Assembly: GCA_001899635.1 (NCBI GenBank)
Contig: MKVQ01000018.1
Coordinates: 93,369 to 157,368, forward strand
Length of the DNA stretch: 64,000 nt
From: Myxococcales bacterium 68-20
GTDB lineage: Bacteria; Myxococcota_A; Polyangia; Polyangiales; Polyangiaceae
Direction: 5' to 3'
Part shown: positions 30,898 through 41,168 of the stretch, in pieces
Numbering within the stretch: position 1 is the stretch's first letter
Layout: each line of letters starts with the position of its first letter
Notes under the pieces: generated by a model
The model's database searches: none
Told to the model about the DNA's origin: nothing
What the model saw: only the letters and a program-made list of their open reading frames with translations
Position numbers and translations under genes: made by a program

Positions 30898-32796
30898 TCA
30901 GGTGCCCAGCCACTTCGCGCTGGCGTGCTTCGAGTGCGGCGTGTGACTCAGCTCCATCAGGAGCTCACGTACCGTCTTCAGGTCGACGGGCTTCTCGAGG
31001 TGGGGCTGTCCCACCGCCTCGAGGAAGGTCTGAGCGCGGCCAGTGAATGCGCCGCCGGTCAGGAACACGGTGCGCTTCGCCAGCTCCGGATCGTCGCGTT
31101 CGAGCAGCTCGTGGAGCTCGATGCCGGACAGCTCCGGCATCATGAGGTCGCACAACATTGCGTCGAACGTGCCGCCGGCACGAACGAGGTCGAGCGCCTC
31201 GCGGCCATTCCGTGCCGACGCGACCTCGAAGTCGCGCGCGAGCACGCGTGTGAGCGAGCGCAGCACGAGCGGGTCGTCATCGACGACGAGGACTCGTCGC
31301 TGGTGAGCCGCGCCTTCGGTCTGGGCGCCGAGCGGGTTCTCGGCGAGCTCCGCTTCCAGCGTGGGGAGCACGACGTGGACGACCGTGCCGCCTCCGTCGC
31401 GCGGTCGGATCGAGATCTCGCCTCCATGTGCGGTTACCGTCGCCTGACAGATCGCGAGTCCCATGCCGGGACGTCGAGGCTTCGTCGTGAAGAACGGGTC
31501 GAAGACCTGGCCGACATTGCTCGAAGCGATCCCGCTGCCGGTGTCGGCGACCTCGATGACGATCGCCGCTCGGCCCTGTTGCTTCGTCGTGATCCGGATC
31601 TCGTTCCGCTCGACGTCGCCTTCGGGCATCGCGTGCGCCGCATTGACGAGGAGGTTGAGGAAGACCTGAGCGAGCTTCGCCTCGCTCCCGAGCGCCGGGA
31701 CGACGGCCTTCAGATCCTTCACGAGGCGTGACCGGTGGCGGATCTCGGCGAAGGCGATGTTGCAGCAGGCCTCGATCACGGCGTTGATGTCGACGCGGCC
31801 ACGGCGATCATCCGCGCACGCGAACGCCCGGAGATCGCGGACGATGAACTGCACACGCTGCGAGGCCGAGAGCGCCTCGTCCAGCATCGCGCGGAGCTCG
31901 ATGAAGTCGGCCTTCGCCGAATCGCTGATCGTGCTCTCGAGATCGGCGGTGACGCGGCTGGCCTCCTCGACGTTGGCGAGGACGACAGCGAGCGGATTGT
32001 TGATCTCGTGGGCGAGGCCCGTGGCGAGCGAGCCGACGGCGGTGATCGCTGCTGCGGAGGCGAGCTTCCCCTCGACGAGCTTTTGACGCGTGAGGTCGCG
32101 GACGAAGCAGAAGTGCCCACGCCCGCGCGCCCGCGCCACGACGGAGAGTTGGACGGGGACGATGCGCCCGTCCTTGCGGACCATGCGCACCTCGAGCTCC
32201 TCCATTCCCCTGCAGGCGAGGGCAGCCCCGGCACGCGAGCGATCGGCTTCGTGGACGAGATCGAGCACCGGCGTCGACTCGACCTCGTTGGGCGCGTAGT
32301 TGAGGACCGCCTGGAACGCCGGGTTGACCGCGATGCAGCTGCCCGACGCGTCGAGCGTGGCGATCGCGTCGACGGCGTTGGCGAGGGCGGAGGTGAGCTC
32401 CTCGATCTCGACGTGGTGGCGCTGCCGCTCGCACGAGTGCGCGATGGTGAGTGGGAGGAGCTGGTATGCGCGCTCCGTTTTGACCACGTACTCCTGTGCG
32501 CCCAGCTCGACGGCTCGAAGGCCGAGCTCCTCGCGGTCATCGCCGGTGAGGACGATGACGGCCGCGCCGCTCGCGAGCGAGTAGATCTCGGTGAAGCTCG
32601 CGAGGCCGTCGCTGTCGGGGAGGCCGAGATCGACCAGGATCGCATCGTAGCGATGGTCGCGGAGATCCTCACGAGCAGCGGCTACGGACGTTGCCCGTGT
32701 GAGATCGAACTGGATTCGCACGAAGCGAGAGAGGACCCGTGCAATCAGAGCCGCGTCATCATCACTGTCTTCCACGAGCAATACGCTCGTCCGCAT
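30898..32796 (-). CDS. Hybrid histidine kinase, receiver-PAS-kinase-receiver
   Basis: This 632-residue protein opens with a receiver domain (phospho-acceptor Asp56 in AILVDLGLP, Lys in YVVK). A PAS domain (about 135-245) and a HisKA dimerisation helix with His263 (GLAHEINNPLAV) follow. An HATPase with N-, G1- and G2-type boxes (NLLVNAAHAM, VADTGSGIA, GMGLAI) precedes a second receiver (Asp in AMLCDLMMP). It carries no TM segment, so it is cytoplasmic and probably takes phosphate from another kinase through the first receiver. ATG 32796 begins exactly at the receiver. The gene follows the other two kinases on the same strand and may be the last of the signalling cluster. Confidence 0.88.
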   Translation of the reverse strand: MRTSVLLVEDSDDDAALIARVLSRFVRIQFDLTRATSVAAAREDLRDHRYDAILVDLGLPDSDGLASFTEIYSLASGAAVIVLTGDDREELGLRAVELGAQEYVVKTERAYQLLPLTIAHSCERQRHHVEIEELTSALANAVDAIATLDASGSCIAVNPAFQAVLNYAPNEVESTPVLDLVHEADRSRAGAALACRGMEELEVRMVRKDGRIVPVQLSVVARARGRGHFCFVRDLTRQKLVEGKLASAAAITAVGSLATGLAHEINNPLAVVLANVEEASRVTADLESTISDSAKADFIELRAMLDEALSASQRVQFIVRDLRAFACADDRRGRVDINAVIEACCNIAFAEIRHRSRLVKDLKAVVPALGSEAKLAQVFLNLLVNAAHAMPEGDVERNEIRITTKQQGRAAIVIEVADTGSGIASSNVGQVFDPFFTTKPRRPGMGLAICQATVTAHGGEISIRPRDGGGTVVHVVLPTLEAELAENPLGAQTEGAAHQRRVLVVDDDPLVLRSLTRVLARDFEVASARNGREALDLVRAGGTFDAMLCDLMMPELSGIELHELLERDDPELAKRTVFLTGGAFTGRAQTFLEAVGQPHLEKPVDLKTVRELLMELSHTPHSKHASAKWLGT

Positions 32797-32940
32797 CAGC
32801 ACCCCACTTCTTGGCAATGGTGACGAGTCGCGGCGTTCCCTCCCAGCAACGGCGCGAGCATGGCATCCGATGCTACCAGCACAGCTCCGGTTCTCGATCC
32901 CAATCCACTGGCGAGGCCGCACGGGCCTCCGCGTCATGTG

Positions 32941-34119
32941 TTAGGTGGGCGGTGGAACGGGGAGGGTGAAGGTTGCCTTCGTACCCTTTCCTGAAGCGCT
33001 CTCGATTCGGAGCTCGCCTCCCAGCCTACCGACGAGTCGTTTGACCTGCGCGACGCCCAGTCCCGTGCCGGTATCGCGTGTCGTGTAGAAAGGGGTGCCG
33101 AGCTTCGCGAGCACGTCGGGTGGAATTCCCGGCCCGTTGTCGGTCACGCTCAGCGTGAGGCCTTTCGGTTCGAGGTCCGCTCGGACGATCACCGAACCTT
33201 GCGGGACCGCGTGCTCCTCGAGAGCCTGCTGTGCGTTCCGTACCAGGTTCACGAAGATCTGCATCAGGTCCGTGGACGTCGCCCGTACGTGTGGGAGGTC
33301 CGGCGGCCCCTCGTAGGCGAGCCGGCTGCCGGAGGACATGCTTCCGCCCCGGCACATCGCCAGCGCGAGCTTGATCACGGGAACGGGCGCGACGCTTCCG
33401 CTCGTGGGAGGTGCGGAATCGTGGCGCTGGAACTGCTTCATCTGCTTCATGAGATCGCTCATGAAGCTTGCGCAGCTCGCGAGGCTGGTCGCGAGCTCGG
33501 GAAGGTCCTCGGCGAGCTGTCCGAGCGTGGCGCGCTCTCTCGGCGAGAGCGTGACGTCCCCTCGCGAGAGACGTAGCAGCGTCGGCGCGATCGCGGAGAG
33601 ATCGTGGAGCTGCTCGGCGCCCATCGAGATCGCCATCACGGGCTGATTGAGGTCGTGGAGGACGGCAGCGGACACCTGGCCCAGGGTGCGAAGGCGCTCG
33701 GTCTGCATCAGGCGGAGCTGGAGCGCGTTGTTTTGTTTGCCGGCGACGTACGCCTCGACCGCCCATCGGAGCGTCTCTTCGAGCTCGGCGCGGTCCCAGG
33801 GCTTGATCACATACCGGACGACGAGGCCGTCGTTGACCGCGTTCAGGATCGGCTCGAGGTCGCTGTACGCCGTCACGATCATGCGGACGGTGTCGGGAGA
33901 GACGTCCTTCACCTTCTTGAGCAGCTCGTCGCCGCTCATTCCGGTCATGCGCTGATCGGTGACGATGACGGCGACGTTCTCCTGCGAGACGAAGGCGAGG
34001 GCTTCCTCTGCGGAGCTGACGCTCTTGATCTTGAACTCTTTGCCGAACGTGATGTCGAACACCACGCGGTTCGGGTGCTCGTCATCCACGTAGAGGATCA
34101 GGTGGTCCCGCAAGTTCAT
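32941..34119 (-). CDS. Receiver-histidine kinase protein
   Basis: A 392-residue soluble protein with a receiver domain (residues 5-120, Asp55 in VIVTDQRMTG, Lys in YVIKPWD) linked by a short helix to a HisKA core with His155 in VLHDLNQP. A HATPase follows (NLVRNAQQAL, TDNGPGIPP, GTGLGVAQV). The order, receiver before kinase, is typical of proteins that receive phosphate and feed it onward or modulate a partner. It lacks any sensor. It lies between two other kinases in the same direction, with 144 and 100 base gaps, so a phosphorelay among them is plausible but not shown. Confidence 0.85.
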   Translation of the reverse strand: MNLRDHLILYVDDEHPNRVVFDITFGKEFKIKSVSSAEEALAFVSQENVAVIVTDQRMTGMSGDELLKKVKDVSPDTVRMIVTAYSDLEPILNAVNDGLVVRYVIKPWDRAELEETLRWAVEAYVAGKQNNALQLRLMQTERLRTLGQVSAAVLHDLNQPVMAISMGAEQLHDLSAIAPTLLRLSRGDVTLSPRERATLGQLAEDLPELATSLASCASFMSDLMKQMKQFQRHDSAPPTSGSVAPVPVIKLALAMCRGGSMSSGSRLAYEGPPDLPHVRATSTDLMQIFVNLVRNAQQALEEHAVPQGSVIVRADLEPKGLTLSVTDNGPGIPPDVLAKLGTPFYTTRDTGTGLGVAQVKRLVGRLGGELRIESASGKGTKATFTLPVPPPT

Positions 34120-34219: not shown

Positions 34220-37200
34220 TCACGACTCCAGCGGCATCTCGAGACGGAAGATGGTGTGCCCCGAAGCGTGTCGAACGTCGAGGCTTCCACCGTGACGGAG
34301 AACGATATCGCGTGCCGTCGATAGACCAAGCCCCGTGCCTTTTCCCGCAGGTTTGGTTGTGAAGAACGGCTCGAAGATGCGCTCCCTGAGCTCATCCGAA
34401 ACGCCCGGGCCGCTGTCGCTGAGCTCGATGATGACCCGCTGAGCTTCGAGGCTCGTTTTCAGCTCCACCCAGCCGCCCTTGCCCGCCGCGTGGGCTCCGT
34501 TCTCGAGCAGGTTCGTCAACACCTGCGCAAGGAGCGGCTCCGCGCAACGGATCGGTCCGCGGTAGTCGAGGCGCTCTCGGACTTCGATGCCGCTCAGCGC
34601 GTGACGGATGGTGCTCTTCACGCGCCGGAGCAGCGTCTCGACCTCCACGGGCTGCCGTTTGAGCTCCACGCCACGCTTGAAGCCGAGCAGCTCGCGCGAG
34701 AGGGAGGCGACCTGCCGGCTGCAATGCTCGATGACGTCGAGCAGCTGCGCAGCGGGCGTGTCGGGAGCGATCGCCTCGGGCGGAAGGAGCGTCCGGAGCG
34801 GGCCGACTGCGTTCACGATGCCGTTGGCCGGGTTGCGGATCTCGTGTGCGAGACCAGCGGACAGGGTGCCGAGCGCCGCGAGCTTCTCGGTCTCGAGCAG
34901 CTGGAGGGCGAGTGAACGGAGCGCGAGCTGCGAGCGCACGCGGGCCCGTAGCTCTGCGGGCTCGAACGGCTTGTGGATGTAGTCGACCGCGCCCGCGTCG
35001 AACCCGGCGAGCTTGTCGCCGATACCGCCGAACGTGGTGAGGACGAGGACCGGGGCCATGCGCGTGCCCTCGAGCGCGCGAAACCGCTTCGTGAGCTCGA
35101 TGCCGTCGATGCCGGGCATCGCGATGTCCGTCACGAGGAGATCGGGCGCGTGGATCGCTGCGAGCTCGAACGCTGCGAGCCCGTCGGGCGCAGTGAGCAC
35201 GCGGTACTCCGATGCGAGGACCTTCGCGGTCCGGTCGCGCAGGTTCGGGTCGTCCTCCGCGAGGAGGATGGTGGCGCGCGCGGTGCCCACCGGCTCGTAG
35301 ACCGACGGAAGCTCGGACGCGTCCGCGGCGATGCCGTAGTCGGTCGGTCGGAGCTTGGGGGTCACCGCAATGGCGGCCTCTTCGGCCTCGCCGCCGCTCT
35401 TGATGAGCGGAAGCTCGACGTGGAAGACGGAGCCACCACCTTCGGCATGTCGGAAGCCGACGCTTCCGCCGTGCGCCTCGGCGAGCTCCTTCACGAGCGA
35501 GAGGCCGAGGCCGCTGCCGCTGATGGCCGTTCCCTTGGAGGCCGCGCCTCGCTCGAATCGCTTGAAGAGCCGCTGCTCGAGCTCGGGTGCGATGCCTGGA
35601 CCGTCGTCGCGAACCTCGATGACCGCGCGGCCCTCTCTCGACGAGAGACGGAGGGCGATCGTTCCGCCCTTCGGCGTGAACTTGACCGCATTCGACACGA
35701 GATTGGCGAGGATTCGCTCGACCGCGTTCGGATCGACGCGCGCGACGAGCCTCTCCTCGATCTCGTGCTCGAGCGTGAGCCCCGCGACGCGAGCCGCGGG
35801 CTTCCACGCCTCCGCGACGGAAGCGATGAGGTCGCCGAGATTGCACGGAGCCGTCCAGAGGCGGAGGTCGGCCTCACGCCCTTCGGCGAGGATGAGGAGC
35901 TCGTCGACCATGCGGAGCACGCGCCGTGCGCCGTGCTCGATCGCGTCGAGTGTGCGGTCGTCCGTCGGGCTCGCGGCGTCGGTCGCGCCCGTCGCACCGG
36001 CAGCGGCTTCGGCGCGAGTGGCGCGTGCCTCGCTGATGCTGAGGAGCACGAGCGAGAGCGGCGAGCGGAGATCGTGATTGAGGTTGGCGAAGATGCGGTC
36101 GCGGGCCTCCTTCGCGCGTTCGAGGTCGTGGACCGTTCCGGCGAGATCGTCGCGGGCCTGGCTCAGCTCGGCGGTCCGCTCGGCGACGCGCACCTCGAGG
36201 CCTCGGCGGTACTCTTCGACGACGAGGTAGCTGATGGCGTTGTCGATCGCCATCATGACCGACGGCACGATGAACGCGAGCAGCTCCGCTCGCTCGCTCG
36301 GATCGGACGGTGCGTGGGCGAAGACGGTGAGCTTGCCGGTGCGGTGACCACCGCGGCCCTCGAGGACCTGCTCCATCGGCGAGGAGCCGCCGTCGCCACG
36401 CTCGATCGAGCGGCAGACCTTCACCCCGTCGACCTCGGCATCCAGCTCCACGCGCGCCCGCGCGAAGCCGGCCTCCTTCACGAGCGCGCCCGCGATGGCT
36501 TCGAGCGTGAGATCGAGATCGAGGTTGTTCTGGATGAGCTCGTTGACCGTGTGCGCGGTCCGTAGCTGCGCGGCCTGCGCCGCCAACTTCGCCCGCGCCG
36601 CGTCCAGCTCTTCGTATCGCACTTGGAGCGTCGCATGAGCGTCGTCGAGCTCACGCGCCGCGTCCGCCGGGGCCGTGATCCAGCGGACTGCACGTCGAAT
36701 TGGATTCACGCGATCGCTGCCTGGAGGAAGGGCGATGAGGTATCGCTCGCCGCGTTCGATCGGCATGGTTTCGACAGTGGCGCGGGGCTTACCGACGAGC
36801 CGTGGGATGTCGCGAAAGCCGCCCTTGTTGAGGAGGAAGAACGCCGGGCAGTGCTCGTAGCCCTCGTCGAGGGAAACATCGAGACTGAGGTGGTCGGGCC
36901 CGAGATCGCGGAAGGTCGTCCGCACGCAGGTGAACATCTGCATGCCCCCGCTGCGAGAGGTCGTCGCGTCCTTCGACAGCCATTGGTAGAACTGCTTTGG
37001 CGTGAAGAGCGCATTCGAGATGAGCCGGATGTGACGAAGGAAGGGCGAGTCGATCCACGCGCCGCCCATCTCGGTGATCTCTTCGCGCGTCCAGATGCGC
37101 TCGGCGTTTCTCATGAGGAGAACGAACGCCGACCAATCAATCCGCTCGTGCTTGTCCTGGAAGTGTTCCAGCGAGTACCCGACGCCCTCGATGAGGACGC

Positions 37201-37270
37201 CTTCGGGGAGCCTCTTCTTCTTGAGCTCCCGGAAGAACATCTCGAGGATGCGGCACGAGACTTCCTTCAT
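34220..37270 (-). CDS. Large hybrid histidine kinase with two kinase cores and an internal receiver
   Basis: The 1016-residue soluble protein has an N-terminal helical domain (residues about 5-95) similar to the N-terminal domain of AraC-type/OruR regulators. A second unknown domain (100-200), a coiled coil (205-240) and a GAF domain (245-345) follow. The first HisKA has His399 (NLNHDLRSPL), followed by HATPase, a receiver (Asp in LLVTDIAMPG) and a second HisKA-HATPase (GLAHEIRNP). Two complete kinase cores in one chain are rare. The AraC-like N-terminus often binds small ligands, so this may sense a product of the enzymes encoded just upstream; the gene begins only six bases after the KAS III-like gene. 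Confidence 0.82.
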   Translation of the reverse strand: MKEVSCRILEMFFRELKKKRLPEGVLIEGVGYSLEHFQDKHERIDWSAFVLLMRNAERIWTREEITEMGGAWIDSPFLRHIRLISNALFTPKQFYQWLSKDATTSRSGGMQMFTCVRTTFRDLGPDHLSLDVSLDEGYEHCPAFFLLNKGGFRDIPRLVGKPRATVETMPIERGERYLIALPPGSDRVNPIRRAVRWITAPADAARELDDAHATLQVRYEELDAARAKLAAQAAQLRTAHTVNELIQNNLDLDLTLEAIAGALVKEAGFARARVELDAEVDGVKVCRSIERGDGGSSPMEQVLEGRGGHRTGKLTVFAHAPSDPSERAELLAFIVPSVMMAIDNAISYLVVEEYRRGLEVRVAERTAELSQARDDLAGTVHDLERAKEARDRIFANLNHDLRSPLSLVLLSISEARATRAEAAAGATGATDAASPTDDRTLDAIEHGARRVLRMVDELLILAEGREADLRLWTAPCNLGDLIASVAEAWKPAARVAGLTLEHEIEERLVARVDPNAVERILANLVSNAVKFTPKGGTIALRLSSREGRAVIEVRDDGPGIAPELEQRLFKRFERGAASKGTAISGSGLGLSLVKELAEAHGGSVGFRHAEGGGSVFHVELPLIKSGGEAEEAAIAVTPKLRPTDYGIAADASELPSVYEPVGTARATILLAEDDPNLRDRTAKVLASEYRVLTAPDGLAAFELAAIHAPDLLVTDIAMPGIDGIELTKRFRALEGTRMAPVLVLTTFGGIGDKLAGFDAGAVDYIHKPFEPAELRARVRSQLALRSLALQLLETEKLAALGTLSAGLAHEIRNPANGIVNAVGPLRTLLPPEAIAPDTPAAQLLDVIEHCSRQVASLSRELLGFKRGVELKRQPVEVETLLRRVKSTIRHALSGIEVRERLDYRGPIRCAEPLLAQVLTNLLENGAHAAGKGGWVELKTSLEAQRVIIELSDSGPGVSDELRERIFEPFFTTKPAGKGTGLGLSTARDIVLRHGGSLDVRHASGHTIFRLEMPLES

Positions 37271-37275
37271 TCAGC

Positions 37276-38352
37276 TCATCGTCCCCAGCGCAGCGCCATG
37301 CCGGACCAGGTCATACCAGTACCGCCCTGGAAACAGGCAACGACATCGCCCGGCACGAGCAGGCCTTCCTTCTCACCAATGGCGAGCTGAAGCGGCAGGT
37401 TCACGGCGCTGAGCGTGCCGGTGTAGTGGAAGTGGTTGACGACCTTCGCGTTGGTCAGCCCTGCGCACGCCTTGCTTGCTGAAGGCAGCCACGGGAACGG
37501 CTGATGACAAGCGAAGAAGGCCACGTCGTCCGGTGTGAGCCCCGCATCGACGAGCGCCTCGCCGACGACCTCAGTCGCGCGCGCAGTCATGCGCGTGAAC
37601 ATGTTGAGGTTGGCGTCGCGGTCCTCCGAGTACGCGGTGCACTTGTCCTCGGTCCAGTGCTTGCCCGGTGCCCCGCAAACCAGAGCGCCCCAGAGGCTGC
37701 CGTCGGTGTGATGGGATGCCGCCAGGATTCCGCGACCTTCGCTCACGGGGCCGACGACGAGTGCGGACGCGCCGTCACCGGCAGAGACGTCGACCGGCTC
37801 GCCAGAGGGAGGCAGACGCGTGAGTGCGGATGCCTGCGTGAGAAGCGCGTAGCGGGCCTGTCCGCTGGCGATCATTCCTTGTGCGAGCGTCAGCTGCATC
37901 ATGAACGAGTTGCACACGGCATCGACGGCCATCGTAGTGCAACGTGGCTTCAATCCGAGATTGGAGTGAACCACACATGCGGACGGGACGTTGATGAAGT
38001 CGGGGATCATGGAGAAGCTGAGCACCAGATCGATCTCTTCCTTGGGGATGCCCGATCGATCGATCGCCTCGCGTGCTGCGGCGGTCTCCATGTCCCAAGA
38101 CTTCATGTCTCGTGGGATGACGCGACGCTCGCGCGCCCCGTGGAAGGCGTCCTCGCCGACCGCCAGAATGTGCTCGAGGGTCGTCTTCGCGACGGCCGAG
38201 GTCTCGTTCTCGAACTCCTTGCGGATACGCTCGATGCGCCGCGTTGCCTTCTCCGTCCACGCTTTCGCAACGTGCTCCGACCACCAGCTGTTCGTGCGAA
38301 CCTCCGACGGTAGGTAGGTGCCCACACCGAGGATTCCGATCGATTTCGACAT
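37276..38352 (-). CDS. 3-oxoacyl-ACP synthase III-like enzyme (thiolase fold)
   Basis: The 358-residue protein has the KAS III fold with nucleophile Cys147 (DAVCNSF) and catalytic His283 (CHQPFPW). The third position of the Cys-His-Asn triad, normally Asn in GNTSAA, is Thr313 (TGTLSA). An extra ~45-residue helical insertion at 25-75 is absent from FabH. Enzymes of this branch (for example PqsD, CerJ or DpsC types) often condense or transfer acyl groups in secondary metabolism rather than prime fatty-acid synthesis. It stands directly before a sensor kinase and 99 bases after a ThDP synthase gene, so synthesis of a specialised molecule is more likely than housekeeping lipid synthesis. Confidence 0.8.
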   Translation of the reverse strand: MSKSIGILGVGTYLPSEVRTNSWWSEHVAKAWTEKATRRIERIRKEFENETSAVAKTTLEHILAVGEDAFHGARERRVIPRDMKSWDMETAAAREAIDRSGIPKEEIDLVLSFSMIPDFINVPSACVVHSNLGLKPRCTTMAVDAVCNSFMMQLTLAQGMIASGQARYALLTQASALTRLPPSGEPVDVSAGDGASALVVGPVSEGRGILAASHHTDGSLWGALVCGAPGKHWTEDKCTAYSEDRDANLNMFTRMTARATEVVGEALVDAGLTPDDVAFFACHQPFPWLPSASKACAGLTNAKVVNHFHYTGTLSAVNLPLQLAIGEKEGLLVPGDVVACFQGGTGMTWSGMALRWGR

Positions 38353-38422
38353 GAAGAAACCTTCCCCACGCGTCGAGGCGTGGTCCTTTCGAGAGCCCGA
38401 GGCAGGGCTCGAGTTAGCGCTC

Positions 38423-38448
38423 GGCCGTGTGCGCGGTCACACGGCCGG
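38423..38448 (-). terminator. Terminator-like hairpin after the ThDP-enzyme gene
   Basis: CGGCCGTGTG and CACACGGCCG form a perfect 10-base stem with a six-base loop, starting four bases beyond the stop of the leftward ThDP-enzyme gene. It may separate or attenuate transcription into the KAS III-like gene. Confidence 0.55.
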
Positions 38449-38451
38449 TGC

Positions 38452-40233
38452 TCACTTCTTGGCCTTGTTGGCCATCTCCTTGAGGAACTCGAGGCGGCCG
38501 TTCTTCAGGCGCACTTCGCGATCGATCCGGATGTCCAGGACGAGCGGGCCCCTCGCCGAGAGCGCGAGGAGATCGAGCGCGAGGATGTCGCCCGGCTGTT
38601 CGATGACGACTGCGGTGGCGCCGACGCCCTCGGCGAGCTGCGCGACGTTCATCGGGCAGGCGAACGACGGGGTGCGTCCGTAGACGGCGTTGTTGCCGAC
38701 CTCGACCAGCCCGTAGCGCTGATCGTTCAGCACGGCGAAGATCATCGGGATCCCCTCCTGTGCCGCGGTTCCGACGTCGCCGAGGCCCATCGAGAAGCAA
38801 CCGTCACCGCAGACCGCCACGACCGGTGCGTCCGGACGACCGACCTTCACGCCGAGCGCTGCGCCCACACCCGAGGCCATCGAGCCGAGGCCGAACATGA
38901 TCATGAACCCGCGCGGCGACCTGATCTCGAGGTGATGCAGCGCGAAGAACATGTGCGAGCCGATGTCCGACGTGAACAGGGCGTTCGACGGCAGGGCTCG
39001 CTGCAGCTCCCAGAGGGCGCGCTGCGGAGAGATGCGCCCCTCCGGTCCGACGGGAAGGTCTGCGCCGGTCTCCTGGCGCCGGACGCCGAACACGCGAGCC
39101 TCTCGCGGCGGCGTCGGTGCGAGCCGACGGATGATCTGGGGAAGCGCTCCTTCGACCGTGTCGACCACGCCGAGCGTGACCGGGTAGTTGCGTCCGATGC
39201 GCTGCGCCTCGACGTCGAGCTGGATGAAGTGCTCCGTCGCCGCCAGCCTCGTGCTCCAGCTGTCCGTTGCCGTCTCGCCGAGGCTGGTCCCGATCGCCAT
39301 GAGGACGTCGACGCCCTCTCCGAGGTAGTCGGAGGCGGACGGGTGGCCGCCCCAACCGAACACGCCGAGGCTCAACGGGTGGTTCTCGGGGAACACGCCC
39401 TTGCCCTTCGGCGTCGTCATCACCGGGATCTGAAGTCGTTCGGCGAGCTCGCGCACGAGCTCGGGGCCCCTGCCCCAGCGCGCGCCCGAACCGACGAGGA
39501 GGAGACCATGCTTCGCGTTCGAGAGGGCGCTCGCGGTAGCGTCGAGCGTGTGCGCGGGGGACTGGAACTCGAGCCGAGCGGTCACCTCGACTGCCGGGGC
39601 CCGCGACTGCGCCGTTCCGACGTCCATCGGGAGCGTGATGACGGTCGGGCCGCGCCGACCGCTCGTAGCCGTTGCAATCGCTCGTCGAAGAAGCGCAGGA
39701 GCCGAATTCGGGTCGCGCGCTTCTGCCGCGAACTTCGTGATGCTCCTCACCATGTGGACGATGTCGAGGCCTTCGCTCGTCCCCTCCTGCACGGCGCCCT
39801 GTCCGAATCGCTCGCGCGGCACCTCTCCGGCGATGACCAGAACGGGAAGCCCGTCGGCGTGAGCGGAGGCGAGCCCCGTCATCGTGTTGAGGATTCCAGG
39901 GCCGGACGTCACCACTACGACACCGAGCTTGCCGGTGGCCTGCGCGTAGCCTGCGGCAGCGAAGATCGCGCCGGCCTCGTGGCGGGTCGTAATCGTGCGG
40001 ATCTCCGGGCGATCGAGGAGCGCGTCGTGGATCGGGGCGATCGGCCCGCCGGGCAGGCCGAAGATGACCTCCACGCCGGCGTCCACGAGGACGTCCACGA
40101 GGATGTCGGCTGTTCTGGCGCTGGGCTTCGCCGTCCGCCTGACGATCATCGAGACGTGCGAAGAATCGTCTGCGCGCGAGGACTGGTCCGGTGCGGGGGG
40201 GGACGCGTCCGCTTTCTGTACTGCAAAGCCCAT
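38452..40233 (-). CDS. Thiamine-diphosphate-dependent enzyme (acetolactate synthase-like)
   Basis: The 593-residue protein has the three-domain plan of the POX/AHAS family. An N-terminal Pyr domain carries the catalytic Glu (RHEAGAIFAA), a central nucleotide-binding-like domain follows, and the PP domain has the ThDP motif GDGCFSMGLGD...LNDQRYG. Such enzymes decarboxylate a 2-keto acid and join the two-carbon unit to an acceptor, or make acyloins. It lacks the ilvN partner and the flanking ilv genes of true acetolactate synthase, so biosynthesis of a special acyloin or keto compound is more likely. A 43-residue polar N-terminal extension is present. It lies 20 bases after the HTH-receiver gene and probably shares its transcript. 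Confidence 0.82.
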   Translation of the reverse strand: MGFAVQKADASPPAPDQSSRADDSSHVSMIVRRTAKPSARTADILVDVLVDAGVEVIFGLPGGPIAPIHDALLDRPEIRTITTRHEAGAIFAAAGYAQATGKLGVVVVTSGPGILNTMTGLASAHADGLPVLVIAGEVPRERFGQGAVQEGTSEGLDIVHMVRSITKFAAEARDPNSAPALLRRAIATATSGRRGPTVITLPMDVGTAQSRAPAVEVTARLEFQSPAHTLDATASALSNAKHGLLLVGSGARWGRGPELVRELAERLQIPVMTTPKGKGVFPENHPLSLGVFGWGGHPSASDYLGEGVDVLMAIGTSLGETATDSWSTRLAATEHFIQLDVEAQRIGRNYPVTLGVVDTVEGALPQIIRRLAPTPPREARVFGVRRQETGADLPVGPEGRISPQRALWELQRALPSNALFTSDIGSHMFFALHHLEIRSPRGFMIMFGLGSMASGVGAALGVKVGRPDAPVVAVCGDGCFSMGLGDVGTAAQEGIPMIFAVLNDQRYGLVEVGNNAVYGRTPSFACPMNVAQLAEGVGATAVVIEQPGDILALDLLALSARGPLVLDIRIDREVRLKNGRLEFLKEMANKAKK

Positions 40234-40253
40234 GGAGAACCCTCTGCCTGTTG

Positions 40254-40856
40254 TTACTGGGCGCGAGCCTCTAACTCGCCCCCACGTGCTGGGAACATCA
40301 ACGAGAGAACGACGCGAACGTCGATCGGCTTCGGAAGACATTTGACGGCGCCCGCCTCGAGCGCCTTCTGCTCGAGCGCAGACGTGAACGCGCCGCTGAC
40401 GACGTAGACGGCGACGTCCTTGGTCGCCGGGTTCTTCTTCAGGCGACGGCACACCTCGAGCCCGTCGATGCCGGGCATGTACACGTCGAGAAGGACCGCG
40501 TGCGGATGGAAGGAACCGACGAGCACGAGCGCGTCGATGCCGTTCGAGGTCGTGGTGACCTCGACCTTGTCGGCGAAGCGCTTCAGCGAGCGCGAGAGCG
40601 CCTTCAGCTGATCCACCTCGTCGTCGACGATCAGGAGGCGCTTCTTCGCGGCGTCCTGGAGGTCGGCCGGGATCGGCATGTCGTGGCGAACGAGGAACGT
40701 GACGAGGTCGGCCGCGCGGATGCGACGGTGGCCGCCCGGTGTGCGGAATGCGATGAGCAGTCCATCGTCCACCCACTTCTTGACGGAGCTGGGGTTCACC
40801 TGAAGGAGCTCCCCGACCTCGCTGGAAGTCAAAAGTTGGTCGCTGACGATTTTCAC
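40254..40856 (-). CDS. HTH-receiver response regulator with BldC/excisionase-type DNA-binding domain
   Basis: An unusual arrangement: a MerR/BldC-like winged helix (residues 5-60; SSEVGELLQVNPSSVKKWVDDG and TPGGHRRIRAADL) precedes a receiver domain with Asp in AVLLDVYMPG and Lys in CLPKPID. Most response regulators have the receiver first. The start is set at the second GTG (40856), because AAGGAG (40865-40870) stands eight bases before it and overlaps the first GTG. It is the first gene of a leftward cluster with the ThDP enzyme, KAS III-like enzyme and kinase. An AT-rich palindrome sits about 55 bases upstream and may be its own operator. Confidence 0.8.
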   Translation of the reverse strand: MKIVSDQLLTSSEVGELLQVNPSSVKKWVDDGLLIAFRTPGGHRRIRAADLVTFLVRHDMPIPADLQDAAKKRLLIVDDEVDQLKALSRSLKRFADKVEVTTTSNGIDALVLVGSFHPHAVLLDVYMPGIDGLEVCRRLKKNPATKDVAVYVVSGAFTSALEQKALEAGAVKCLPKPIDVRVVLSLMFPARGGELEARAQ

Positions 40857-41168
40857 GAGTTTCACTCCTTAGTCGTGCGTGTCGGTCTGGTCAAAATTGA
40901 AGCGGCAAATTCGTTTTAAACGAGATAACGGCTTCAGTCGGGGTTTTGACGCGCTGGATGCGCGACTCCCCGGCTCCAAGTGTACGACCACCTTAGGAAA
41001 AGCGCGGAGAAAGTCGCTCCGGAAGCGCGATCTCGGTGGCCCCCTCCGAGACCGGGCGCCGAAGCGACGAAGTCGGTGATTGCCGCCAGGTTTTTCCCGT
41101 TCCTGGGGCCGGGAGGGGCTCGGCTCGTCCGTTAGCACCTGGAAAGATTGGCGGGGATCCCGGCCTCG
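40857..41168. other. Leader and promoter region of the HTH-receiver gene
   Basis: No gene is evident in 312 bases. The stretch 40890-40930 is clearly lower in GC than the surroundings and holds the palindrome noted separately. The rest (40940-41168) is normal GC with no features I recognise. Confidence 0.5.
40911..40923. promoter_or_regulatory. AT-rich palindrome, candidate operator
   Basis: TCGTTTTAAACGA is a perfect palindrome of two six-base arms around one base, within the lowest-GC patch of the region and about 55 bases before the GTG of the HTH-receiver gene. Its position suggests a binding site for a regulator, possibly the HTH-receiver protein itself. Confidence 0.4.

Follow-up and report, generated by a model that had tools for sequence, protein, structure and literature searches.

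Myxobacteria are known for multicellular behaviour, but to our knowledge both the synthase and the receptor have been identified for few of their small-molecule signals. Does a single operon of Myxococcales bacterium 68-20 encode both? The operon lies on the minus strand of a 64,000-nucleotide (nt) stretch of contig MKVQ01000018.1 (positions 93,369 to 157,368; hereafter the window), from a genome of 11.9 Mb in 52 contigs. An initial annotation, made from the sequence alone, had proposed that the cluster at 34220-40856 of the window makes and detects its own signal. We put at roughly 60% the probability that these genes form a self-contained synthase-receptor phosphorelay for signal synthesis and sensing with a hydroxyketone-type molecule. 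The proposal is supported by the linkage of the enzymes to kinases and by the co-divergence of one enzyme with the sensor domain across 23 loci; the molecule, its binding and its exit from the cell are what we infer.

Six minus-strand genes run leftward with intergenic gaps of 3 to 104 nt. In operon order they encode a MerR-type regulator with a receiver (REC) domain (MerR-REC), a thiamine diphosphate (ThDP)-dependent synthase, a ketoacyl synthase III (KAS III)-like enzyme, a double-core hybrid kinase, a REC-kinase and a further hybrid kinase. The features are as follows, with the putative sensor domain on a line of its own:

40254-40856, minus strand: response regulator with a MerR/BldC-type helix-turn-helix (HTH; HTH_17) and a receiver (Pfam, NCBIfam), the probable DNA-binding output of the relay.
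38452-40149, minus strand: ThDP-dependent acetohydroxyacid synthase (AHAS)-like carboligase with three TPP domains (Pfam TPP_enzyme N, M and C); presumed start, Met at 40149.
37276-38352, minus strand: KAS III-like enzyme, ACP_syn_III and ACP_syn_III_C (Pfam, PDB homology).
34220-37270, minus strand: double-core hybrid histidine kinase, HisKA-HATPase-REC-HisKA-HATPase (Pfam); H-NOX/AraC-N-fold domain (4-188) and GAF-fold domain (about 228-359) from an AlphaFold2 (AF2) model with Foldseek/VIA-align.
36707-37270, minus strand: putative ligand-binding domain of H-NOX/AraC-N fold, kinase residues 1-188 (AF2 model).
32941-34119, minus strand: REC-HisKA-HATPase kinase, fifth gene of the conserved cassette (Pfam).
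30898-32937, minus strand: REC-PAS-HisKA-HATPase-REC hybrid kinase, EspA/EspC-like (Pfam, NCBIfam).

The four genes that the initial annotation had read at 34220-40856 are all present on the minus strand with exact coordinates, and the two further kinases it had mentioned are those at 32941-34119 and 30898-32937. It had also placed the kinase start six bases from the KAS gene, which agrees with the 5 nt that lie between the KAS stop and the kinase start.

Is the pairing of these enzymes with a kinase more than a local accident? Starting from the enzyme, a KAS profile (A1) was run over 317 genomes of the class and 67 hits of at least 282 bits were examined, 61 of which have a ThDP gene in tandem. 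Kinases were counted with a profile built from the window kinases and enlarged with its hits, using the edges of open reading frames, which may be too long. By this count a kinase lies within 3 kb at 35 of the 46 ThDP-KAS tandems that have 3 kb or more of flank on each side (33 on the same strand), and a kinase edge lies within 150 bp at 43 of all 61; with near-copies removed (KAS less than 85% identical) the figures are 32/42 and 40/57. Random segments, taken as sliding 3-kb segments in twenty 20-kb stretches at fixed positions in ten genomes, have a kinase within 3 kb in 238 of 2200 cases (10.8%) and within 150 bp in 8 of 2200. A chance neighbourhood was rejected on this control and on the conserved gene order described below, and enzymes that are widespread but unlinked to kinases, which had been set beforehand as a refutation of the signalling proposal, are not what the 35/46 against 238/2200 describe.

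The linkage is also seen when counted from the kinase. A profile of the sensor domain (A5) found 27 strong places (at least 200 bits) in the same 317 genomes, and 26 of them adjoin ThDP and/or KAS genes. ThDP and KAS stand on the same contig at 21, one has KAS with ThDP beyond the contig edge, one has ThDP and a homologue of ScyC (genome G327), and in G332 the KAS gene is on another contig, which ends inside the matching kinase start. Weaker sensor relatives, of which the higher-scoring ones alone were fetched, served as a contrast: among 13 loci within L112-L126, some on short contigs and with two fragments of strong-type kinases (L115, L116) left out, KAS occurs at L117 only, and at L123 the nearest sign of the pair is a ThDP gene some 6 kb off. 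The KAS-side search adds two distant cases beside weak-sensor-type kinases (L141, L163). The idea that weak-sensor kinases are partners of other synthases was rejected, as their neighbours are mixed by eye.

How far does the gene order reach? A KAS-guided contig scan gave 11 loci, the closest named relative being a metagenome-assembled genome of Labilithrix sp., a genus in Myxococcota, with 68% KAS identity. MerR-REC, ThDP, KAS and sensor kinase keep their order in six of the 11 (L046 from Labilithrix sp., L048, L049, L050, L052 and L053), with the receiver part alone of MerR-REC present in L052. Among the remaining loci, L056 breaks off inside KAS, with MerR-REC and ThDP upstream, L047 has a different kinase beside ThDP-KAS, L051 (Sorangium cellulosum So0157-2) carries the ThDP-KAS pair but no kinase, and L054 shows ThDP and KAS on a short contig. 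The last locus, L055, lies outside Myxococcota, in Xenorhabdus stockiae, where KAS is matched in part (31% over about 214 residues). The conservation of gene order that the initial annotation had named as a check in other myxobacteria is thus found in other Myxococcota.

The window was then compared with 22 other cassette loci by blastp with at least half of each protein aligned. The kinase and the ThDP enzyme are matched in 22/22, KAS in 21/22, the REC-kinase in 17/22 and MerR-REC in 15/22. Non-cassette genes of the window match mainly the same-genus loci L087, L089 and L096, and most other matches are antisense cassette frames. The first five genes are a conserved cassette, and the flanks are common mainly within the genus; the kinase at 30898-32937 belongs to the operon and lies outside the wider cassette, with an 85% identical copy at L089:3047 and matches of 36-39% elsewhere (L097, L052). 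The ThDP-KAS-sensor cassette is present in five families of the class (f1, f10, f67, f71 and f72). One genome, G481, carries two cassettes with window-type kinases (L090, L091) whose KAS proteins are 64% identical to each other, which is the expectation for parallel channels. In L050, a second pair of MerR-REC and REC-kinase genes (L050:19472-21062) lies about 5 kb downstream of the cassette sensor kinase, with no ThDP or KAS match seen alongside.

Kinases of other architectures also accompany the enzyme pair. We call loci with the window-type kinase beside ThDP-KAS type I. In type II, ThDP and KAS are followed in most loci directly downstream by a HisKA-HATPase-REC kinase of about 500-550 residues (for example L031, L127, L134, L147 and L152), and the type II count also takes in two short degenerate kinases (L035, L137), one kinase placed upstream (L040) and two encoded on the other strand (L139, L142). 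Type III has an upstream kinase with an N-terminus that is V4R-like by eye (L047/L132, L129); Pfam gives L047 a weak V4R match (E 0.0098) and L129 none. A sensor fold shared with these V4R-like kinases was rejected on the weak or absent V4R match and the lack of any L047-A5 similarity in hhalign; the single-sequence model of the V4R-like kinase was unusable, with a predicted local distance difference test (pLDDT) score of 53.6. On the KAS tree, which omits L093 (a sequence that is also blank at the active-site columns of the KAS alignment), types I and III occupy one half and type II the other, kinase-free loci occur in both, and the kinase-type label changes 15 times against a shuffled mean of 34. 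This pattern indicates that the ThDP-KAS pair has long been accompanied by kinases, with kinase replacement and loss. The Sorangium-clade pairs L051 and L154, which have no kinase within 3 kb, fall in the type I half, and this placement suggests kinase loss.

The same clustering of kinase labels means that the loci are not independent, and neighbourhoods do persist within the genus, as they would if the linkage were historical or neutral, a selfish or inherited neighbourhood with no functional coupling. We regard this as very improbable, given that the flanks differ between genera while the cassette stays, that different kinase architectures have become attached to the ThDP-KAS pair and that in 24/24 type I loci, the window included, KAS and kinase are no more than 32 nt apart (median 1), taking the kinase start from a profile.

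What could the kinase sense? Residues 1-369 of the kinase protein (P0001) match no Pfam family at E 10. An AF2 model on seven sequences (mean pLDDT 80, predicted template modelling score 0.49) predicts an H-NOX-type fold for residues 4-188, with VIA-align Z of 14.8 to 6bdd (root-mean-square deviation 2.8, 167 residues) and 14.0 to 2o09, and a GAF fold for residues ~228-359 (Z ~11). The sensor model also matches the N-terminal domain of the AraC-family protein VirS (8rcw, Z 12.3), and two weaker sensor relatives, L112 and L113, match PF12625 at E 3e-4 and 1.4e-3, both under the gathering score; the AraC-like N-terminus claimed from the letters alone thereby stands up indirectly. We found no account of VirS together with H-NOX in the open-access papers searched. 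Haem sensing by H-NOX proteins requires a proximal His. The seven-sequence sensor alignment (A5) has no invariant His, hence a haem role is unlikely and a haem H-NOX gas sensor was rejected: the fold matches, the conserved His does not. The ligand may instead be a small hydrophobic molecule.

If the product of the neighbouring enzyme is that ligand, KAS and the sensor domain are expected to co-diverge. Within the genus of the window (pairs among the window, L087 and L089), identity is 98% for MerR-REC, 88-93% for ThDP and 84-89% for the second kinase core (core2), against 65-68% for KAS and 57-69% for kinase residues 1-190. For the window against L087 and L089 the values are 65-68% for KAS, 60-69% for the sensor, 88-89% for ThDP and 98% for MerR-REC. 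The rapid change of these two parts is evident within this genus and is not universal. A mirror-tree analysis assembled 27 loci and used 23, L056, L090, L101 and L111 being dropped for missing or truncated parts. KAS distances correlate most with those of the sensor (r = 0.68), followed by the first kinase core (core1; 0.61), REC (0.56), ThDP (0.54), core2 (0.47) and the GAF-like region (0.37). After controlling for ThDP and core2, the sensor has a partial r with KAS of 0.54 (jackknife 0.51-0.58), against 0.32 for core1, 0.27 for REC and 0.21 for the GAF-like region, values reached by 0/500, 0/500, 1/500 and 8/500 permutations, respectively. Seen from the sensor, with core1, core2 and REC controlled, the partial r is 0.44 for KAS and -0.05 for ThDP. 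Odd/even-column reliability is 0.72-0.75 for KAS, sensor, GAF-like region and core1, so noise is not the cause of the contrast between the sensor and the other parts. The co-divergence suggests, from sequence distances, a product that is the ligand of the adjacent domain.

Natural variants bear on the same question. Four genomes (L088, L097, L105 and L111) encode the ThDP enzyme as a fusion with a full receiver domain (Pfam), the phospho-acceptor Asp motif being visible in all four; in these relatives the relay would control synthesis directly. In G327 a ScyC homologue (351 bits, cut-off 400) sits exactly in the KAS position, between ThDP and sensor kinase. ScyC matches occur in 5/317 class genomes, of which G327 alone is full-length, the other four being short stretches of 22-26 bits, and the genome of the window has none. 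Outside the class, 282 genomes of the phylum yielded three sensors (331, 192 and 169 bits). Two are divergent from a synthase of the BioF/KBL family (CqsA superfamily) that uses pyridoxal phosphate (PLP), with a GNAT domain fused in one, and these synthases score only 58-64 bits against the CqsA-type model (cut-off 428). The third is divergent from a GNAT gene of the same Pfam family as the fused GNAT; further neighbours are a wax-ester-synthase-family gene at one sensor and a flavoprotein-like gene, by eye, at another. A sensor that stays constant while the small-molecule enzyme changes is the behaviour expected of a receptor.

These observations also bear on the idea that the kinase responds to something unrelated, such as a gas or haem, the redox state or a fatty or primary keto acid, and that the enzyme pair is its regulated output. 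The modelled fold is that of the H-NOX gas sensors (Z 14.8), and the REC-ThDP fusions suggest a relay capable of acting on the enzyme. We nevertheless consider the idea improbable: the domain alignment has no invariant His, the domain tracks KAS and not ThDP once the kinase core is controlled, and the partner enzyme varies (KAS, ScyC, PLP synthase, GNAT) behind a constant sensor.

What would the enzymes make? The best solved relatives of the ThDP enzyme are BbmA and CsmA, and its catalytic Glu58 is kept in 26/26 aligned cassette copies. It scores 360.6 bits against TIGR00118 (acetolactate synthase large subunit; cut-off 538.35), which makes it a member of the superfamily and not a biosynthetic AHAS, and 242 bits against the ScyA-related NF035927 (cut-off 1000). 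In the window KAS, alignment finds Cys147 and His283 present and Thr313 at the FabH Asn position, and the KAS 3 family model gives 139.6 (cut-off 249). A plain fatty-acid FabH was rejected on this score and on the replacement of Asn by Thr. Across the cassettes, Cys, His and Asn are found in 16/23, 22/23 and 6/23 type I and in 20/21, 0/21 and 6/21 type II KAS proteins, a non-FabH pattern which indicates that the chemistry is not that of plain FabH. The type I proteins that lack Cys (L088, L090, L091, L094, L097, L105 and L149) have Ala, Gly or Gln instead and group together in a single sub-branch of the KAS tree; the loci of three (L088, L097 and L105) also have the receiver-ThDP fusion.

We propose that the KAS III-like enzyme condenses the ThDP product with acyl-coenzyme A or an acyl-acyl carrier protein, with loss of CO2, to give an acyl-bearing alpha-hydroxyketone or a diketone. 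This would follow the two-step logic of the carbazole pathway, in which, in the available text of PMC7466098, acyloin condensation by the ThDP enzyme CqsB3/NzsH precedes decarboxylative condensation with an acyl thioester by the KASIII-like CqsB1/NzsJ. The likeness is one of family (an AHAS-like ThDP and KASIII-like tandem) and not of direct sequence comparison with CqsB1 and CqsB3. Unlike that pathway, the operon has kinases, and its six proteins show no Bet v1-like CqsB2-type domain (genes further away were not scanned). The product would bind the adjacent hybrid kinase at its N-terminal H-NOX/AraC-N-fold domain and alter the activity of that kinase, and phosphate would pass from the kinase receiver to the REC-kinase and on to MerR-REC, which would control transcription. 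The molecule may be exported and act between cells, or it may act inside its producer. Stigmolone is a myxobacterial hydroxyketone pheromone; as a product of this cassette we leave it as speculation, having found no open-access paper on its biosynthesis.

The same enzymes would also suit a kinase-regulated specialised-metabolite operon, in which the product works outward as an antibiotic, pigment or protectant and the kinase gives pathway-specific feedback regulation instead of serving as a communication receptor. ThDP-KAS pairs make carbazoles in other bacteria, as far as the available text of PMC7466098 goes, and the ScyA and ScyC family names are those of scytonemin enzymes. Tailoring-type genes do occur: G336 has a P450 and an O-methyltransferase inside the cassette, between ThDP and KAS, G409 has a methyltransferase gene after the sensor kinase, and G344 has another about 1.2 kb upstream of it. 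We judge such an operon somewhat unlikely, as no transporter or tailoring gene is common to the 23 cassette loci in the way that the five cassette genes are, and as KAS co-diverges most with the sensor domain. It parts from a signalling cassette mainly in the role of the product.

Does the cassette belong to a known system? Its nearest functional parallels are CqsA/CqsS and LqsA/LqsS of Vibrio and Legionella, which the available text of PMC3376566 describes as gene clusters of a C-C-bond-forming synthase and a cognate histidine kinase. Here too a synthase gene adjoins a kinase (gap 5 nt, with cognate status our proposal), and a hydroxyketone is again the proposed product class. CqsA and LqsA are single PLP enzymes, in place of which the operon has ThDP and KAS III-like enzymes, and no PLP-enzyme family matches any of its six proteins (Pfam, NCBIfam). 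The CqsS/LqsS receptor is a membrane domain with six transmembrane segments, whereas the modelled sensor is an H-NOX/AraC-N fold (4-188) followed by GAF (228-359). As both synthase and receptor differ, the cassette would work like CqsA/CqsS without being a member.

Likeness to scytonemin ScyA/ScyC lies in the matches of cassette AHAS-like ThDP enzymes to ScyA models and in the ScyC homologue of G327; the window differs, with a ThDP enzyme far below the ScyA-related cut-off and no ScyC, and neither carbazole nor scytonemin cyclases are found among the six operon proteins. The window KAS shares KAS III homology and the Cys and His with PqsD/PqsC, and differs from FabH-type enzymes in its Thr at the Asn position. 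Quinolone signalling also differs in its receptor, a LysR-type regulator instead of a kinase. The sensor resembles H-NOX and AraC N-terminal domains (VirS, PF12625) in predicted fold and differs from them in its lack of an invariant His and in being followed by a GAF-fold domain and then a double kinase core. Among the papers listed in searches of the open-access literature, outside which most subscription papers lie, we found none that links a ThDP or KAS III enzyme to a histidine kinase or an autoinducer in such a system.

Several observations weigh against a synthase-receptor cassette. No kinase lies within 3 kb at 11 of the 46 full-flank tandems, the Sorangium-clade L051 and L154 included; in two genomes, G409 (L108) and G408 (L107), the sensor kinase directly follows ThDP with no KAS; and the strong sensor of G344 has neither ThDP nor KAS on its 3.6-kb contig. 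The type II kinase has an N-terminus that is pseudo-receiver-like by eye, with no obvious small-molecule pocket. The active-site Cys is lost in 7 of 23 scored type I KAS proteins and the window has Thr for Asn, so that, with the triad degenerate, KAS may carry out a different reaction or be inactive in some copies. In the pairs L100/L103, L053/L106 and L102/L101 it is the GAF-like region that is least conserved. Before any control, the sensor correlates as strongly with core1 from the same protein (0.67) as with KAS (0.68), and core1, REC and the GAF-like region also beat nearly all of the permutations, so that the sensor is set apart by the size of its partial r alone. Those permutations ignore phylogeny, and as KAS and sensor are adjacent DNA, exchange of linked segments could inflate the correlation. 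The assessment of the enzyme neighbours outside the class was post hoc, and a wax-ester-synthase-family gene also lies next to one of the kinases there. Product and ligand are proposals, and cell-to-cell and intracellular signalling would both fit the observations.

At the transcriptional end of the proposed relay, MerR-REC starts with a GTG at 40856 after TAAGGAG, and this ribosome-binding site and start are aligned in three same-genus loci; the HTH and REC of the regulator are 97-99% identical in L087 and L089. Just upstream, at 40912-40922 on the minus strand, lies the palindrome CGTTTAAAACG, which occurs once in the window against 0 expected from shuffles and is partly retained in two same-genus loci. 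It is a candidate autoregulatory site. Counts of promoters and terminators show no excess over shuffles.

What would the cassette mean for myxobacteria? It offers a candidate synthase and a candidate receptor side by side, testable gene by gene, and the co-divergence of KAS and sensor points to an enzyme and 190 residues that may set specificity. More tentatively, and with somewhat less confidence than in the phosphorelay itself, it may represent a new autoinducer class, in which a ThDP acyloin synthase with a KAS III-like or swapped partner such as ScyC is read by an H-NOX/AraC-N-fold hybrid kinase, and in which an exchangeable synthase module (ThDP-KAS, ThDP-ScyC or PLP synthase-GNAT) beside a constant receptor kinase has diversified private signals across Myxococcota. 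If the proposed signalling role is right, the cassette would add a route to ketone-type signals that uses neither PLP enzymes nor acyl-homoserine lactones, give an H-NOX-like fold without a conserved haem ligand a role as receptor, and be a new way for bacteria to produce and sense their own chemical signal.

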